50,193 nt of DNA, taken from assembly GCA_016183775.1 (NCBI GenBank), contig JACPDY010000066.1, forward strand, positions 1 through 50,193. The letters are read 5' to 3'. Each line of letters opens with the position of its first letter. The stretch's first letter is position 1. Under the pieces are notes generated by a model. It was not told the origin of the DNA, made no database searches, and saw only the letters and a program-made list of their open reading frames with translations. The stretch comes from Bacteroidota bacterium. GTDB taxonomy: Bacteria; Bacteroidota; Bacteroidia; JABDFU01. A program made the translations under genes and the position numbers. Below are positions 3,013-41,189 of the stretch, in pieces.

Positions 3013-3094
3013 AATGTTTATTCAATGTTGTTTAGTTAAGGATTTGGTCGTTCGTATTTTTATTTTTAGTGGGATTTGGTGCTTTAGTGCTTTG
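3013..3094. repeat. 82-bp direct repeat, copy 2 (encodes the tail of the GT2 protein)
   Basis: One mismatch to 2840-2921. Positions 3032-3094 are translated on the minus strand as the last 20 residues of the glycosyltransferase and its stop codon. Confidence 0.95.
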
Positions 3095-18346: not shown

Positions 18347-18353
18347 GAAAAAA

Positions 18354-18392
18354 GGTTTCAAGTTTCAGGTTTCAAGTTGTTTAACCTGAAAC
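18354..18392. repeat. GTTTCA-word repeat between sufA and the nucleotidyltransferase cassette
   Basis: Alternating words GGTTTCAAG/TTTCAGG, then TTAACCTGAAAC, which can pair with the first half. The same words flank the four-helix-bundle gene at 20551-20575 and 21045-21076. Confidence 0.8.
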
Positions 18393-20546: not shown

Positions 20547-20550
20547 AAAA

Positions 20551-20575
20551 GGTTTCAGGTTTCAAGTTTCAGGTT
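20551..20575. repeat. GTTTCA-word inverted repeat, left of the four-helix-bundle gene
   Basis: Begins four bases after the sufB stop. Its last 20 bases (CAGGTTTCAAGTTTCAGGTT) are exactly complementary to part of 21045-21076, so the gene between is bracketed by inverted repeats. Confidence 0.85.
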
Positions 20576-20592
20576 TTTTGAACTTAGAACTT

Positions 20593-24668: not shown

Positions 24669-24671
24669 GAA

Positions 24672-24703
24672 GGTTCAAGGTTCTGTGTTCAAAGTTCAAG
24701 GTT
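24672..24703. repeat. GTTCAAGG-word repeat between sufS and sufE
   Basis: Three near-copies of GTTCAAGGTT in direct order. The same word forms the hairpin at 25152-25204. Confidence 0.8.
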
Positions 24704-25148: not shown

Positions 25149-25151
25149 AAA

Positions 25152-25204
25152 GTTCAAGGTTCCGGGTTCAAGGTTAAAACAACTTTGAACACGGAACCTT
25201 GAAC
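25152..25204. repeat. GTTCAAGG-word hairpin between sufE and sufT
   Basis: GTTCAAGGTTCCG (25152-25164) is perfectly complementary to CGGAACCTTGAAC (25192-25204), with further pairing inside. It nearly fills the 69-base gap. Confidence 0.9.
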
Positions 25205-25217
25205 CTTGAACTAAACT

Positions 25218-25547: not shown

Positions 25548-25553
25548 GGCAGA

Positions 25554-25612
25554 TATGAGATGTGAGATATGAGTATTGAGACTCTCATATCTCATATTTC
25601 AATACTCACATC
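25554..25612. repeat. GAGATATGAG-word palindromic repeat before the DUF2480 gene
   Basis: GATGTGAG (25559-25566) pairs with CTCACATC (25605-25612), and ATATGAG and AGTATTGA words pair within. It ends two bases before the next ATG. Confidence 0.8.
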
Positions 25613-34710: not shown

Positions 34711-35658
34711 ATGCAATTATTAACTCCCGATAACTGGTCCGACTACGAGTTGCTTGATTGCGGCGAATTTGAAAAGCTGGAGCGTTTTGGTCAATACATC
34801 GTGGTTCGCCCTGAGCCACAGGCTGTATGGGATAAAAACCTTTCGGATAAAGAATGGGAGCGTATGGCACATGTGCGGTTTGTGCCTAAATCGAGCTCGG
34901 CAGGGGAGTGGAAGAAGTTTAAACAAATGCCGGATAGGTGGGGAATCAGTTATCGGTTGTCAGTTGTCGGGAAACAACCGGAGACAAATAACCAACAACC
35001 AACAACCAACAACGTACTTAATTTTCGTTTGGCTTTAACTTCATTTAAACATGTTGGCATTTTCCCCGAGCAAGGTGTTAATTGGGAATATATTTACAAT
35101 ACAATAATTACTATGAAAAACAATACCCTCTCCGAAGGAGAGGGCCGACGGGAGGACAAACCCCGTTTCCTCAATTTATTTGCATACACCGGTGGTGCCT
35201 CGTTGGCCGCGAAAGCGGCAGGGGCTGATGTTACACATGTTGACTCCATTAAACAGGTTGTTACCTGGGCACGTGAAAATATGGAACTATCCAGGCTTGA
35301 TAATATCCGCTGGGTGGTTGAAGATGCGTTGAAATTTGTGAAGCGTGAAGAGAAACGCGGCAACAAGTATAATGGCATTATTCTCGACCCTCCTGCCTAT
35401 GGACATGGCCCGGCAGGTGAAAAATGGAAACTGGAAGACAATATCAATGAAATGATAAAAGGGGTATTGAATCTCCTTGATGAAAAGCAGCATTTCCTTA
35501 TCCTGAATGCATACTCACTTGGGTTTTCATCCATGATCATTGAAAATCTTTTAAAAGAAAAGGCCAAACATAATCTCCAGACAGGAGAATTATATCTGCA
35601 AGCCGATTCCGGCCACAAATTACCTCTGGGAGTTTTCGGACGATTTAAAAACTTTTGA
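34711..35658 (+). CDS. Class I SAM methyltransferase, RlmI/RlmK-like (rRNA large-subunit type), with two in-frame repeat insertions
   Basis: 315 residues. The core motifs are LNLFAYTGGASLAAKAAGADVTHVDS (motif I and acidic strand), VEDALKFVKRE and the catalytic-type ILDPPAYGHGP (DPPxY). This resembles the COG1092 group, where RlmI and RlmK methylate 23S rRNA, but the N-terminal PUA domain is absent, as in many Bacteroidota members; the substrate is therefore unproven. Two stretches look foreign: about 20 residues around VVGKQPETNNQQPTTNN (repeat 34955-35013), and about 12 residues NNTLSEGEGRRED (palindrome 35126-35144). Removing both leaves a continuous family sequence. It is divergent from gltX, 59 bases apart. 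Confidence 0.88.
   Translation: MQLLTPDNWSDYELLDCGEFEKLERFGQYIVVRPEPQAVWDKNLSDKEWERMAHVRFVPKSSSAGEWKKFKQMPDRWGISYRLSVVGKQPETNNQQPTTNNVLNFRLALTSFKHVGIFPEQGVNWEYIYNTIITMKNNTLSEGEGRREDKPRFLNLFAYTGGASLAAKAAGADVTHVDSIKQVVTWARENMELSRLDNIRWVVEDALKFVKREEKRGNKYNGIILDPPAYGHGPAGEKWKLEDNINEMIKGVLNLLDEKQHFLILNAYSLGFSSMIIENLLKEKAKHNLQTGELYLQADSGHKLPLGVFGRFKNF
34955..35013. repeat. AACAACC word repeat inserted in frame in the methyltransferase gene
   Basis: GGTTGTCAGTTGTC at the left and repeated ACCAACAACCAACAACC at the right are roughly complementary, giving a hairpin-forming insert translated as low-complexity residues rich in N, Q and T. Confidence 0.75.
35126..35144. repeat. Perfect palindrome inserted in frame in the methyltransferase gene
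   Basis: CCCTCTCC GAA GGAGAGGG has 8-base perfect arms and a 3-base loop, translated as TLSEGEG. Its style matches the sufS insert. Confidence 0.85.
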
Positions 35659-36020
35659 CATATACCGTTCTCTGCATTATTTCAGCTTTCCCGGCATTTT
35701 TGGATTGAAGCAAAATTTTGATGCAACTTTTTTTCAAGAATCAAGAAATTTCAAAAAACTTACATATCTATTGTCTAATACTTTTTGTGGGGAAACAAAC
35801 TATTATAATTGAAATGGCTCGGATATTACGAGGTTTATTTGTTTTTCTACGCGAAAAAAGTGTATTAAATGAGGCATAATTTTGAGCACAAAGAGGTTTT
35901 GCTTAGAAGACAGTATATTCTACATTTATATAGCAGATATATGTTGGAAATTAACAAAACTGCCACTTATTTCCGAGGAATTTTGTCCTATTCCCCGATT
36001 GATATAAATTGATTTACCCT
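35659..36020. other. Intergenic stretch upstream of the large SprB-repeat gene
   Basis: AT-rich, with no repeat of the families described and no supported gene. It presumably holds the promoter of the large gene; a TAATACTTTTTG near 35779 resembles the -7 consensus with one extra base, which is weak. Confidence 0.4.
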
Positions 36021-39000
36021 GTGAACACACACACAAAGCTACTTGCCGGCATATTATTTCTTTTCCTGGGTTTCAATGTAAAAGCGGATCATACAGCTGC
36101 CATGGAACTGTCATATCGCTGCCTGGGTGGCGGCAAGTATGAGATCAAACTTCACTTTTACCGCGATTGTTCAGGGGCTCCTATGATAAGTTCATATAGT
36201 TCATTTTTGAACCAATATTTTGGTGTGGGCGCTGAGCAAGACATTACCTGGACATCCTCTTGTGGCTCAGGGTCAATTAGGTTTCCAAAACCTACAAATG
36301 TCGATGCAAGTACCAATTATGTAGGGCCGGAAGTTACTTTTCTTTGTCCTACCGGTAAATCAACTTGCAACGGAGGTACTACCCCCGGGTTTCAATATTA
36401 TGAATATGTGGACACCATTACGCTGGCCGGTACATGTAATAATATTACATTCGGTTACGGTAAATGCAATCGCAGTTGTTCAATAAACACCATTATTCTT
36501 CCGTGCTCTTCCTGTGCCTATGTTGATGCATTGCTTAATAATACTCTTGGATGTAACAGCTCGCCTACGTTTTCAAACATCCCGCTTCCGGTAGCTTGTG
36601 TGGGGCAAAAATTTTGTTTTAACCCGGGAGCCATTGATCCGGATGGCGATTCTTTGGTTTATTCATTGATCCCCGCAAGAGGTGGGACTTCCTCTACTCC
36701 CTATTCTAATGTTGTAACATATTCACCTCCTTATTCAGGAACCAATCCTATTGCAACATCGTCCGGCGTAACTATTGATAAAGTTACAGGTGATATTTGT
36801 TTTACTCCTACAACCCAACAAATTGGGGTAATAGCAATCAGGGTGGATGAATACAGGAACAAAGTACTTGTCGGTAATGTTGTCCGTGATATGCAGATAT
36901 ATGTTAAGGCATGTACAAATAATATTCCTACTCTTTCAGGAGTCAACAATACCAGTAGTTATTCAATAACAGCTTGTAAGGGCAGTCCGCTTTGCTTCGA
37001 TATTTTCAGTACAGATGCTGATGCAAGTCAGAACCTGACAATAACCTGGAACAATGGTATTCCGGCCGGCACGTTTACCTCAAGCGGAGGCCCGCGTCCT
37101 ACCGGGACTTTTTGCTGGACCCCTACTGCTACAGATGTAAGAACAGCACCCTATATATTTACTGTGAATGTAAAGGATGATAATTGTCCCGGTGTTGGTA
37201 TCCAGACATTTTCTTATAAGGTCTATGTCAGCAATTGTGTAGGCCCTCAGGTAAGCGTTGCCGGCAGTTCGGTTTGCAGCGGCGGATGTACAAATTTGAC
37301 TGCAACGACCAGTTCTGGGGTCAGTCCGTATACTTTTAACTGGAGTTCCGGGGGTGGAACTCCTACAATAAACGTTTGCCCTGTAGCGGCCACTGCATAC
37401 ACTGTAACTGTAACTGACAATACGGGAGCCACGAAAACCGGCGTAGTGAATGTCAGCATTAACCCAACAACCACTTTAACAACAACTATAACAAACGTAG
37501 GTTGCCCCGGAGGAACAAACGGAACCGCCACAGGGATTGCTACAGGGGGAACGGCTCCTTATTCATATTCATGGAGTTCAGGATCCACCTCAGCTACCGC
37601 TTCAAACCTTGTTCCGGGTACATATACCGTAACCAGTACCGATTCGAAGGGCTGTATCAAAACCGCGACAGCTATGGTGGATCAGCCAACGGCTATAACA
37701 CTTACTCCCAATTCCGGAGCTGCCGGCTGCGGAACTTCAAATGGCAGCGCAAGTATAGCTGTCAGCGGCGGAACGGGTCCGTTTACATATACCTGGAGTA
37801 ATGGTGGTGCTGCACAAACTATCAGTGGCGCGGGAGCGGGCTCTTATACTGTTACGGTTATTGATTCAAAAGGGTGTACAAAGTCAGCTGTGGCTGCGGT
37901 AAGCAACAGCCCCTCTCCTGCAATAAATAGTTTGACAGGAAACGCTTTGCAATGCAGCAGCGGAAGTAATGGTTCCTCATCAGTAGCAGCATCCGGCGGA
38001 ACGGGACTGTTGACTTACAACTGGAGCAATGGAGTTTCTGGCACAACCACAATAACAGGATTAACTGCCGGAACCTACGTTGTAACAGTAACGGATGCAA
38101 ATGGCTGCCTTGCAGTAAGTACAGTTGCCATTACAAGTCCTCCGGCGATGGTTACAAACCTTGTTCCTGTTTCCGCTGCATGCGGGTCATCGAACGGAAA
38201 AGTGAGTGTATCTGTTAGTAGTGGCGGTACAGGCCCATTTACATATAACTGGAACAATGGAGGAACTGCACAAACTGTTTCGGGACTTGCACCTGCAATA
38301 TATACTCTAACTGTTACTGATGCTAATGGCTGTACTAAAACGGATGCCGTTACAGTAAATAACATTACCGGTGGAACAGTAAGTGCGACTGCACAAGCGA
38401 ACGTAAGCTGTAATGGAGGTAGTAATGGAAGTATCACAGCAACCGTTTCAGGAGGAACGCCTAATTATTCTTACTCATGGAGTAATACCTCGACAACTCA
38501 GACTGCAAATAACTTAACTGCCGGAACATATACGGTTACAACAACGGATGCCAGTGGCTGCAGTTCAACAAGCAGTGTTACTATTACTGAACCCATTGCT
38601 TTAACGGCGAATACATCTTCTTCCCCTGCTACCTGTGGTACTGCCAATGGAAGTGCCAGTGTTACAGCCGGTGGCGGTAGCGGTTCGTTTCAATTCAACT
38701 GGACAGGCGGTTTCACGGGACAGGTTGCTTCGGGATTAATTGCCGGTTCATATACAGTTACAATTGCCGATGCCGGAAATTGTACAATAACAGCTGTGGC
38801 GATAATCAGCAATACCGGCACAGGGAATGTTACAACAGCCGTGCAGTCTAATATAAGCTGTAGTGGAGGAAATAATGGAAGTGCAACTGCAAGTATTACC
38901 GGAGGAACACCAGGTTTCACGTACTCATGGAGCAGTGGCGGAACAGGTCAAACCGCTGATAATCTTATAAAAGGAATTTTTACAGTAACAGTTACTGATG

Positions 39001-41189
39001 CCAGCAGCTGCCAGGTAATAAGCACAGTGGAGATCACTGAGCCAACAAGTATAACAGCTAATGTTACTCCTGTGCCAGCTTCATGCGGATTGTCCAATGG
39101 CAGTGCAAGCGTTAATCCGGGTGGTGGTACCGGAACGTTCTCATACAGCTGGTCTGCTCCCGGTGGGACCGGACAAACCATTTCGGGACTTGCTCCGGCA
39201 ATATATACCGTTACAGTTACCGATGCAAATAGTTGCTCGTTAACAACAACAGTAACGATCATCAGCAATGCCTCTCCTTCAATCACCAACTTGTCGGGCA
39301 CCAACCTGTTGTGCAATGGAAACAGCAGCGGCTCCGTTACAGTAACTGCGTCCGGAGGCACCGGAACACTGACCTATTCATGGAGCAATACGTCATCAGG
39401 AGGTACTTCCATTACAGGCCTTGCTGCAGGAACATATAGTGTTATCGTTGCTGATGCCAATGGTTGTACTGCTATAAGTGCAGTTGCTATTACGGAACCT
39501 CCGGTATTAAACCCGCCGACATTTACAACAACCAATGCCAATTGCGGCGTAAATGATGGGTCGGCCACTGCAACTGTTTTGGGCGGGACGGGAAGTTTAA
39601 CTTATAATTGGAGCAATAGTTCAACAACTGCTGCGGTAAATAACCTCGCAACAGGAAGCTATACGTTGACTGTTACTGATGCAAATGGATGTACAAATTC
39701 TTCTGTTGCAAATGTTAGTAATAGCGGAGGTCCAACCATAACATCGGTCACCCCCACTGATCTGTTATGCAATGGAGGAGGAACAGGTTCGGCAGTGGTA
39801 ATAATCAGTAATGGCACAGCTCCGTATACATACAGATGGAGTACAGGAGCGACATCTGTTACAACAGGTACCCAATCTGGTATCAGTAATTTACAATCCG
39901 CCACTTATACTGTAACAGTGAAAGATGCTAAAAATTGTCAGATCATAACAACCGTTGCAATTACCGAGCCTACTGCAATAACCACTACATTTATAACCAG
40001 TGATGCAGCCTGTGGACAAAGTAATGGTTCCATTACGGCAACTTCAACCGGTGGCACAGGATCATTGATCTATTCGTGGAGTAATGGAAGCACCGGGCAA
40101 ACTGCAAATAATCTGATTGCCGCTACATATACAGTGGTTGTGACCGATGCGAACAATTGTGCCCGATCGGCGGTTGCAAGTGTAGTTAATGTTGGCGCCC
40201 CAACGGCTAATACTTCTGTTGTGTCATCAATAAACTGCAATGGAGATACCGGCTCTGTAAATGTAACTGTAAGTGGCGGAACTGGTCCTTATACATACAG
40301 TTGGAGCAATGGCAGCAGTTCTGTTACCTCAGCTTTGCAATCTACGATCAGCGGGGTGCAAGCGGCAAGTTATACTGTAACAGTAACAGACAGTAAAAAC
40401 TGTATTACTATTGCCTCCGAAATCCTTACAGAACCGTCGATACTTGACATAACTACATCAAGTACTCCTGCCGAGTGCGGGAAGAATAACGGTTCAGTTT
40501 CGGTTATTGCAACAGGTGGAAGTGGTGGATATACCTATATCTGGTCCTCCCCGGCCGGACCGGGTCAGACAATAAATAGCCTGGTTTCTGCAATTTATAC
40601 TGTAACAGTAACTGACAGCAAAGGCTGCACTACGAGCTCTGTTTCAACGGTTGGTGATTCAACTTTTACCATTCTCACCAATATTCCTGCAAAACAAACT
40701 ATTACGGCCGGAGCAAGTATATACATGCTTGTAAGCGGAGGGGTAACTTATACCTGGACCCCTTCAGGGGGTCTTTCGTGTACAAATTGTCCTAACCCTG
40801 TAGCGACCCCTATGACATCCACTATTTACACGCTTTCAGCTACTGATGCAGGAGGATGCACTGTAGTGGTTATGTTCAGCATAACTGTTACACCGCCTTG
40901 TGTAGGCGATGATGCAGATGTATTTGTGGCAAACATATTTTCGCCAAACAATGATGGGAAGAACGACGTATTATATATTCAGGGCAATAGCCTTGCAAAT
41001 ATTTATTGGGCTATATATGACCGTTGGGGAAATCTGTTATTTGAGGCTTTTGATCAGGCGCATGGATGGGATGGAACCAAAAAAGGTAACGCAATGGATG
41101 CCGGTACTTATGTCTACTACCTGAAAGCCACCTGCTCAAAAACCAATACTGAAGTGAAACTTAAGGGGAATGTGACTATTTTGAAGTGA
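36021..41189 (+). CDS. Large cell-surface protein with 14 SprB-type repeats and a gliding-associated C-terminal domain
   Basis: 1722 residues from the GTG at 36021 (MNTHTKLLAGILFLFLGFNVKADH, a signal peptide); a TTG four codons earlier is the alternative. Residues about 25-420 form a cysteine-rich N-terminal region and Ig-like parts. From about 490 to 1545 lie 14 repeats of the SprB type (NGSxxxxxxGGTxxYxYxWSNG... TYTVTVTDxxGC). They alternate strictly between an A form (CNGGxxGS, usually ending ITEP) and a B form (CGxxNGS, ending without ITEP), so the real unit is about 150 residues, seven times over. The end, from about 1631 (VANIFSPNNDGKND, IYDRWGNLLFE, GTYVYYLKA), is the T9SS type B C-terminal domain. 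It is expected at the cell surface as an adhesin or gliding component. Confidence 0.92.
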   Translation: MNTHTKLLAGILFLFLGFNVKADHTAAMELSYRCLGGGKYEIKLHFYRDCSGAPMISSYSSFLNQYFGVGAEQDITWTSSCGSGSIRFPKPTNVDASTNYVGPEVTFLCPTGKSTCNGGTTPGFQYYEYVDTITLAGTCNNITFGYGKCNRSCSINTIILPCSSCAYVDALLNNTLGCNSSPTFSNIPLPVACVGQKFCFNPGAIDPDGDSLVYSLIPARGGTSSTPYSNVVTYSPPYSGTNPIATSSGVTIDKVTGDICFTPTTQQIGVIAIRVDEYRNKVLVGNVVRDMQIYVKACTNNIPTLSGVNNTSSYSITACKGSPLCFDIFSTDADASQNLTITWNNGIPAGTFTSSGGPRPTGTFCWTPTATDVRTAPYIFTVNVKDDNCPGVGIQTFSYKVYVSNCVGPQVSVAGSSVCSGGCTNLTATTSSGVSPYTFNWSSGGGTPTINVCPVAATAYTVTVTDNTGATKTGVVNVSINPTTTLTTTITNVGCPGGTNGTATGIATGGTAPYSYSWSSGSTSATASNLVPGTYTVTSTDSKGCIKTATAMVDQPTAITLTPNSGAAGCGTSNGSASIAVSGGTGPFTYTWSNGGAAQTISGAGAGSYTVTVIDSKGCTKSAVAAVSNSPSPAINSLTGNALQCSSGSNGSSSVAASGGTGLLTYNWSNGVSGTTTITGLTAGTYVVTVTDANGCLAVSTVAITSPPAMVTNLVPVSAACGSSNGKVSVSVSSGGTGPFTYNWNNGGTAQTVSGLAPAIYTLTVTDANGCTKTDAVTVNNITGGTVSATAQANVSCNGGSNGSITATVSGGTPNYSYSWSNTSTTQTANNLTAGTYTVTTTDASGCSSTSSVTITEPIALTANTSSSPATCGTANGSASVTAGGGSGSFQFNWTGGFTGQVASGLIAGSYTVTIADAGNCTITAVAIISNTGTGNVTTAVQSNISCSGGNNGSATASITGGTPGFTYSWSSGGTGQTADNLIKGIFTVTVTDASSCQVISTVEITEPTSITANVTPVPASCGLSNGSASVNPGGGTGTFSYSWSAPGGTGQTISGLAPAIYTVTVTDANSCSLTTTVTIISNASPSITNLSGTNLLCNGNSSGSVTVTASGGTGTLTYSWSNTSSGGTSITGLAAGTYSVIVADANGCTAISAVAITEPPVLNPPTFTTTNANCGVNDGSATATVLGGTGSLTYNWSNSSTTAAVNNLATGSYTLTVTDANGCTNSSVANVSNSGGPTITSVTPTDLLCNGGGTGSAVVIISNGTAPYTYRWSTGATSVTTGTQSGISNLQSATYTVTVKDAKNCQIITTVAITEPTAITTTFITSDAACGQSNGSITATSTGGTGSLIYSWSNGSTGQTANNLIAATYTVVVTDANNCARSAVASVVNVGAPTANTSVVSSINCNGDTGSVNVTVSGGTGPYTYSWSNGSSSVTSALQSTISGVQAASYTVTVTDSKNCITIASEILTEPSILDITTSSTPAECGKNNGSVSVIATGGSGGYTYIWSSPAGPGQTINSLVSAIYTVTVTDSKGCTTSSVSTVGDSTFTILTNIPAKQTITAGASIYMLVSGGVTYTWTPSGGLSCTNCPNPVATPMTSTIYTLSATDAGGCTVVVMFSITVTPPCVGDDADVFVANIFSPNNDGKNDVLYIQGNSLANIYWAIYDRWGNLLFEAFDQAHGWDGTKKGNAMDAGTYVYYLKATCSKTNTEVKLKGNVTILK

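Follow-up and report, generated by a model that had tools for sequence, protein, structure and literature searches.

Here we show that a core methyltransferase gene of a Bacteroidota bacterium carries two in-frame inserts of repeat DNA, the first of which belongs to a class of period-7 repeats dispersed over the genome, and that the same loop of the enzyme holds different repeat words in other lineages. Recurrent, nearly neutral entry of repeat DNA into tolerant loops is, in our judgement, the probable overall explanation. The gene lies in a stretch of 50,193 nucleotides (the window), with the following features.

34711..35658, plus strand: host open reading frame, a 315 aa class I SAM-dependent methyltransferase with an RlmI/RlmK-like Rossmann core, 2IGT-like.
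34946-35013, plus strand: site 1 as a whole, a 68-base period-7 GTTRTYR/AACAACC repeat, in frame.
34946..34970, plus strand: left (G-rich) arm of site 1, heptads GTTATCG GTTGTCA GTTGTCG; TCAGTTATCGGTTGTCAGTTGTCGG.
34971..34986, plus strand: spacer between the arms of site 1, not common to other copies.
34987..35013, plus strand: right (C-rich) arm of site 1, AACAACC heptads; ATAACCAACAACCAACAACCAACAAC; translated NNQQPTTNN.
35126..35155, plus strand: site 2, REP-like palindrome CCCTCTCCGAAGGAGAGGG with a CCGACGGGAGG tail; translated TLSEGEGRRE; full sequence CCCTCTCCGAAGGAGAGGGCCGACGGGAGG.

The reading frame of the host gene is uninterrupted despite the two in-frame inserts. The methyltransferase core is conserved, as judged by a match to PF10672; the best solved relative is 2IGT_A (E=3e-50), and the motifs LNLFAYTG and DPPAYG are unbroken, thereby confirming the first-pass annotation in its view of an open gene with a conserved enzyme core. 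The AlphaFold2 model (mean pLDDT 90.4) placed both sites in loops of low pLDDT: site 1 follows strand 76-82 and precedes strand 102-108 (pLDDT 54, per block of ten), and site 2 connects helix 119-140 with strand 152-156 (pLDDT 64, per block of ten). A neighbouring gene, at 36009-41189 of the window, encodes a very long, repeat-rich, secreted-looking protein.

The site 1 insert comprises about residues 83-101 of the enzyme, and its peptide, SVVGKQPETNNQQPTTNN, is polar and probably disordered. The repeat had been placed at 34955-35013; it is indeed present and in frame there, with a slightly longer extent (34946-35013), and both arms have period 7. The longest exact period-7 match run in the gene was 17, as against a maximum of 10 in 2000 dinucleotide-preserving shuffles. 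The hairpin attributed to the repeat was recovered on the antisense strand, where 22 bp with G-U pairs are formed (-31.2 kcal/mol, z -5.2, 0/200 shuffles), whereas the sense (mRNA) strand showed no structure at site 1 on folding (z -0.5). A hairpin in the mRNA is thus ruled out, and we count it against our preferred explanation that pairing of the window copy is GU-only and antisense-only.

Comparison with orthologues revealed what had been gained. Between the site 1 anchors there are 23 residues in the window protein as against 10 in L010 (genome G005) and 6 in L012 (genome G003), and at site 2 the corresponding numbers are 24, 15 and 13; the alignment with 2IGT_A has gaps at both sites. Among three orthologues from the same genus, two are free of any repeat-like insert at site 1 and one carries a heptad of another word there. 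The first-pass annotation had named the same residues in other genera as evidence against an inserted repeat, and no orthologue, of the same genus or from outside it, carries the site 1 residues of the window. It had also expected an alignment gap matching the insert exactly. Gaps are found at the insert, but relatives are shorter there by 39-51 nt net, against a repeat of about 68 nt, so that either the old loop was partly overwritten or the array grew from the loop; an exact insertion with a clean empty site is unsupported.

When 81 orthologues were compared, all six strong period-7 arrays, defined as at least 12 consecutive matches, lay at site 1, with almost nothing comparable at periods other than 7. 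The units are AACCAAC in the window, AAAGTTC in L019, L028 and L030, AATCTCA in L024 and AAGTCAA in L039, and represent at least four independent events, perhaps five. The arrays of L028 and L030 also form hairpins, and that of L024 probably does too. L040 has GTCATTGCGAGCGGAGCGAAGCAATCTC at site 1, a repeat with 14 copies in its own genome. Inserted words tend to be those that the host genome has elsewhere: 14 copies of CATTGCGAG are present in G010, AAAAGTC arrays occur in G009 and G010 only, and AATCTCA occurs in G007. The match in repertoire is not universal, as no other exact AAAGTTC array was found in G008. The methyltransferase loop is variable in general, and its ordinary divergence, repetitive by chance, was weighed as an explanation; it is ruled out by the shuffles and by the placement of every strong array at one site, the same class of unit recurs across the genome, and we give it practically no credence.

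Site 2 lies 110 nt downstream of site 1 and was absent from the earlier annotation. It belongs to a dispersed family with the consensus CCCTCTCCnnnGGAGAGGG-nn-GGGGTGAGG. A strict pattern matched 9 copies in this genome and 5 to 27 in three genomes outside the genus (G006, G009 and G010), and none in three partial genomes from within it. The palindrome CCCTCTCC..GGAGAGGG of the window is reversed in L039, where site 2 reads CCCTCTCCACCGGGAGAGGG with the CCTCACCCC side leading; the GC-rich inserts of L020 and L040 at site 2 look related. The element has the size of a REP palindrome (20-40 bp), but its tail, GGGGTGAGG, is neither GTAG nor CGTC. It is probably a mobile REP-like element, separate from the heptads.

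Site 1 is best read as one member of a genome-wide period-7 class, built of a G-rich arm, an unrelated spacer and a C-rich arm, or sometimes of one arm only. The core methyltransferase has taken it up in frame, in a surface loop that connects two beta strands. The inserted peptide would be tolerated rather than functional, with purifying selection leaving only in-frame, stop-free, polar, loop-placed insertions. The two methyltransferase loops are recurrent acceptor sites, for which reason different lineages hold different repeat families there. We infer neutrality of the inserted peptides from the finding that unrelated words stand at the same site and that relatives manage without them. The contrary possibility, that the insert functions as an antisense hairpin RNA or as a selected peptide tuning the enzyme, is in keeping with a strong hairpin confined to the antisense strand. 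It is nevertheless very improbable, because the site in relatives is either without an insert or filled with unrelated words, the same peptides occur in unrelated enzymes, and an Rfam search gave no convincing match (only mir-1992 at 22.3 bits, below the cutoff of 70 and taken as chance).

The genome was surveyed over 1.07 Mb (the window and 60 further stretches, 89% coding). Since 40 of the 60 stretches had been picked mostly for repeat or transposase matches, a separate unselected subset of 321 kb was also counted. Genes in the stretches were called by a simple hexamer-scored ORF picker, and N-terminal genic cases may therefore be annotation artefacts. Exact tandem arrays numbered 39 at period 7 and 0-5 at other periods, except 14; in the unselected subset there were 8 at period 7 and 0-3 at others, except for 5 at period 14. 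Period-7 arrays were about ten times denser between genes than within them. The first-pass annotation had likened site 1 to intergenic repeats of the window and had proposed a genome-wide count of its word. GTTRTYR x3 gave 128 matches genome-wide compared to 31 for a reversed control; within the window the likeness is one of style (heptads) and not of word, as the exact site 1 word forms an array nowhere else in it. The intergenic heptad repeats of the window are as follows.

18352..18379: GTTTCAR intergenic heptad array.
20548..20577: GTTTCAR intergenic heptad array.
24670..24690: GTTCAAG intergenic heptad array.
25149..25214: GTTCAAG intergenic heptad hairpin with the G-rich arm leading; it occupies almost all of the space between one gene's stop codon and the start codon of the next.
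25550..25603: GAGATRT / ATCTCAT heptad hairpin on a gene boundary, again with the G-rich arm leading.

Long AACAACC arrays were also observed at contig ends (G000 C39:1-130 and C115:1-115), so arrays probably break assemblies and are under-counted. Other repeats of the window are two 82-nt copies at 2840-2921 and 3013-3094, 99% identical and 173 nt apart with inverted pieces between them, which are a recent small duplication, and two related GC-rich palindromes, AACCTGCCTGACCGGCAGTCAGGTT at 361-385 and AAACCTGCTTGTCGGTCAGGCAGGTTT at 2953-2979, which probably constitute a further repeat family.

Where arms are paired, the G-rich arm comes first, in 24/24 cases for GTTRTYR and in 35/35 when several families were counted; at a looser threshold one C-first pair appeared among about 30. 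The few cases from other lineages have a polarity of the same sign. As an inverted repeat reads alike from both strands, this polarity is a real property of the elements. Single arrays followed no clear orientation rule relative to neighbouring genes. The polarity bears directly on how the repeats arise. Local polymerase slippage in 7-nt steps, combined with fold-back (template-switch) copying and with the frame kept in genic cases, accounts for the prominence of period 7 among many unrelated words and for hairpin spacers that are all different and share no sequence; the site 1 array partly overlaps the codons of a semi-conserved ISY, as if grown from it, and heptanucleotide slippage has been proposed before, going by its citation in PMC4679880. 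Both processes are strand-neutral, though, and should yield C-rich-first pairs equally often, so that the observed 35:0 is not what they predict; nor do they fit arms of different words within one element, as in RNase R and in PriA of the sibling genome described below. We regard slippage as possible but doubtful.

Inverted-repeat arms, fixed polarity and dispersed copies could also be read as signs that the heptads are mobile units of the MITE/REP type which a transposase has dispersed, for instance one of the Y1 (RAYT) enzymes of this genome. There are eight Y1_Tnp matches in it, and site 2 moreover has a defined body that is dispersed in several genomes. For the heptads, dispersal of this kind is rather unlikely: their copies have no conserved body or spacer and their arms exchange words independently. 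Around the Y1_Tnp genes examined, no CCCTCTCC palindrome, no strict-pattern copy of site 2 and no heptad hairpin was found adjoining, and the flanks bear other palindromes, so that RAYT linkage is unsupported for either of the two elements. One other palindrome, ACCTCGAGGCTCTGCCTCGGGGT at 110-132 of the window, is identical to L103 1415-1437, about 80 bases upstream of a Y1 match on contig C146, and with that RAYT-like Y1 transposase it is likely a REP/RAYT pair in this genome.

Entry of heptads into coding sequence is not confined to the methyltransferase. In-frame arrays were found over the 1.07 Mb in MurC, RNase R, PriA, LipB, BioA, a UbiD-like enzyme, a TrmH-like methylase, CtaA and others. 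Those of MurC, RNase R, PriA and LipB coincide with gaps or breaks when the proteins are aligned to PDB chains. The arrays of BioA and TrmH showed no net gap against PDB relatives and that of the UbiD-like enzyme lies in a C-terminal extension; these three were left out of the count of clean inserts. The copies in MurC and LipB are single unpaired arrays, and palindromy is therefore not a defining property of the heptad elements. The CtaA-like gene (L184 2569-3663) has three different in-frame heptad arrays in succession, AAAGTTC, GAAGACC and AATCTCA. All five interior genic AACAACC cases (the window gene, MurC, RNase R, LipB and the secreted protein of L174) give, in the sense direction, a polar peptide of the NNQQPTT type. 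This points to selection for peptides that a loop can accept.

A sibling genome (G004), with 91-96% identity in these proteins, shows how the inserts turn over. Its MurC insert is almost identical to that of this genome. Its RNase R loop has AGTCGGA units as against GAGGGAC units here. The two genomes share the right arm of the PriA element, CCCTCGT, but the left arm in G004 is AGTCGGA-like. Hence one arm is replaced without the other, and the two need not be complementary. The MurC loop is also occupied by a long insert, not of heptads, in a further species of the genus (G003, L221); that non-repeat insertions also enter these loops weighs against our preferred explanation.

Period 7 is dominant among the STRR heptanucleotides of cyanobacteria. 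It is also dominant, as here, among long simple sequence repeats (Mrazek 2007, going by its citation in PMC4679880). We found no description of either LSSR or STRR in which arms are paired with a fixed polarity, or in which loops of core enzymes repeatedly acquire in-frame copies. TAACTGA direct repeats are known from Beggiatoaceae, cyanobacteria and five Bacteroidetes, mainly between genes and with ORF copies mostly at protein ends, and related heptamers are rarely repeated in the main genome of that study (PMC4679880). The repeats described here are, similarly, tandem direct 7-nt units and mostly intergenic, and the left arm of site 1 has the reverse complement TCAGTTA and close variants. 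They are not TAACTGA repeats as such, however, since GTTRTYR and many other units occur in the same genome, words vary widely and core loops are struck.

In-frame palindromes are known in Rickettsia, where RPEs were about 150 bp as first reported (PMC10969869), and a resemblance of site 1 to them had been noted. Like RPEs (RPE-1, RPE-4, RPE-6 and others; Ogata, Claverie), the heptads lie between genes as well as in frame within unrelated, otherwise conserved proteins, in loops, and are apparently structurally tolerated. The resemblance stops there, and site 1 does not belong to the RPEs: these are defined families with a conserved body, whereas the heptads are tandem, have no body common to copies, differ in spacers and words, are often single-armed and turn over arm by arm. 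Intragenic GTAG/CGTC REPs have been reported from several bacteria other than Rickettsia, where they lie in frame within core genes; Bacteroidetes are listed with CGTC repeats (PMC3733652). The CATTGCGAG insert of L040 is of the same general kind, as is site 2, although the tail of site 2 corresponds to neither tag; site 1, made of tandem heptads without a GTAG/CGTC tag, is no REP. Tandem repeats of Borgs are described (PMC9879509) as fast-evolving and as creating new disordered protein regions, much as the heptads do, but Borgs are archaea-associated and extrachromosomal and their repeats direct, as against 7-nt units with inverted arms on a bacterial chromosome. The published intragenic REPs and the heptads of five Bacteroidetes weaken the earlier suggestion that such inserts may be undescribed for Bacteroidota. 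What survives of it is narrower: in the open-licence literature we found no description of recurrent heptad capture by core-enzyme loops, of arm turnover or of fixed polarity.

As to origin, we offer tentatively the conjecture that G-rich heptads were added to the 3' ends on both sides of a break, which were then joined. Such addition would predict the observed polarity; slippage with fold-back copying and 3'-end addition at a break seem to us about equally likely. There is some chance that the arm polarity points to an undescribed process. A break-linked, telomerase-like activity of Bacteroidota, adding short G-rich heptads to 3' ends before joining, is a quite unlikely form of it; if real, it would leave G-rich-left/C-rich-right scars wherever these are tolerated, including loops of essential enzymes, and would change words fast between sibling species. 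The fixed polarity, which extends across heptad families, offers a clue, both simple and strong, to the formation of such repeats.

The data suggest that short repeat DNA repeatedly supplies new peptide loops to essential proteins. One loop with different words per lineage, and arms replaced between siblings, are natural replicates, through which the entry of palindromic repeats into proteins can be tested by comparison. For annotation, it should be borne in mind that NNQQPTTNN, SSKFKVQ and SQKSEVR in these proteins derive from repeat DNA. Beyond Rickettsia-like parasites, core enzymes of Bacteroidota would be actively supplied with new peptide segments by repeat DNA of the intergenic type.
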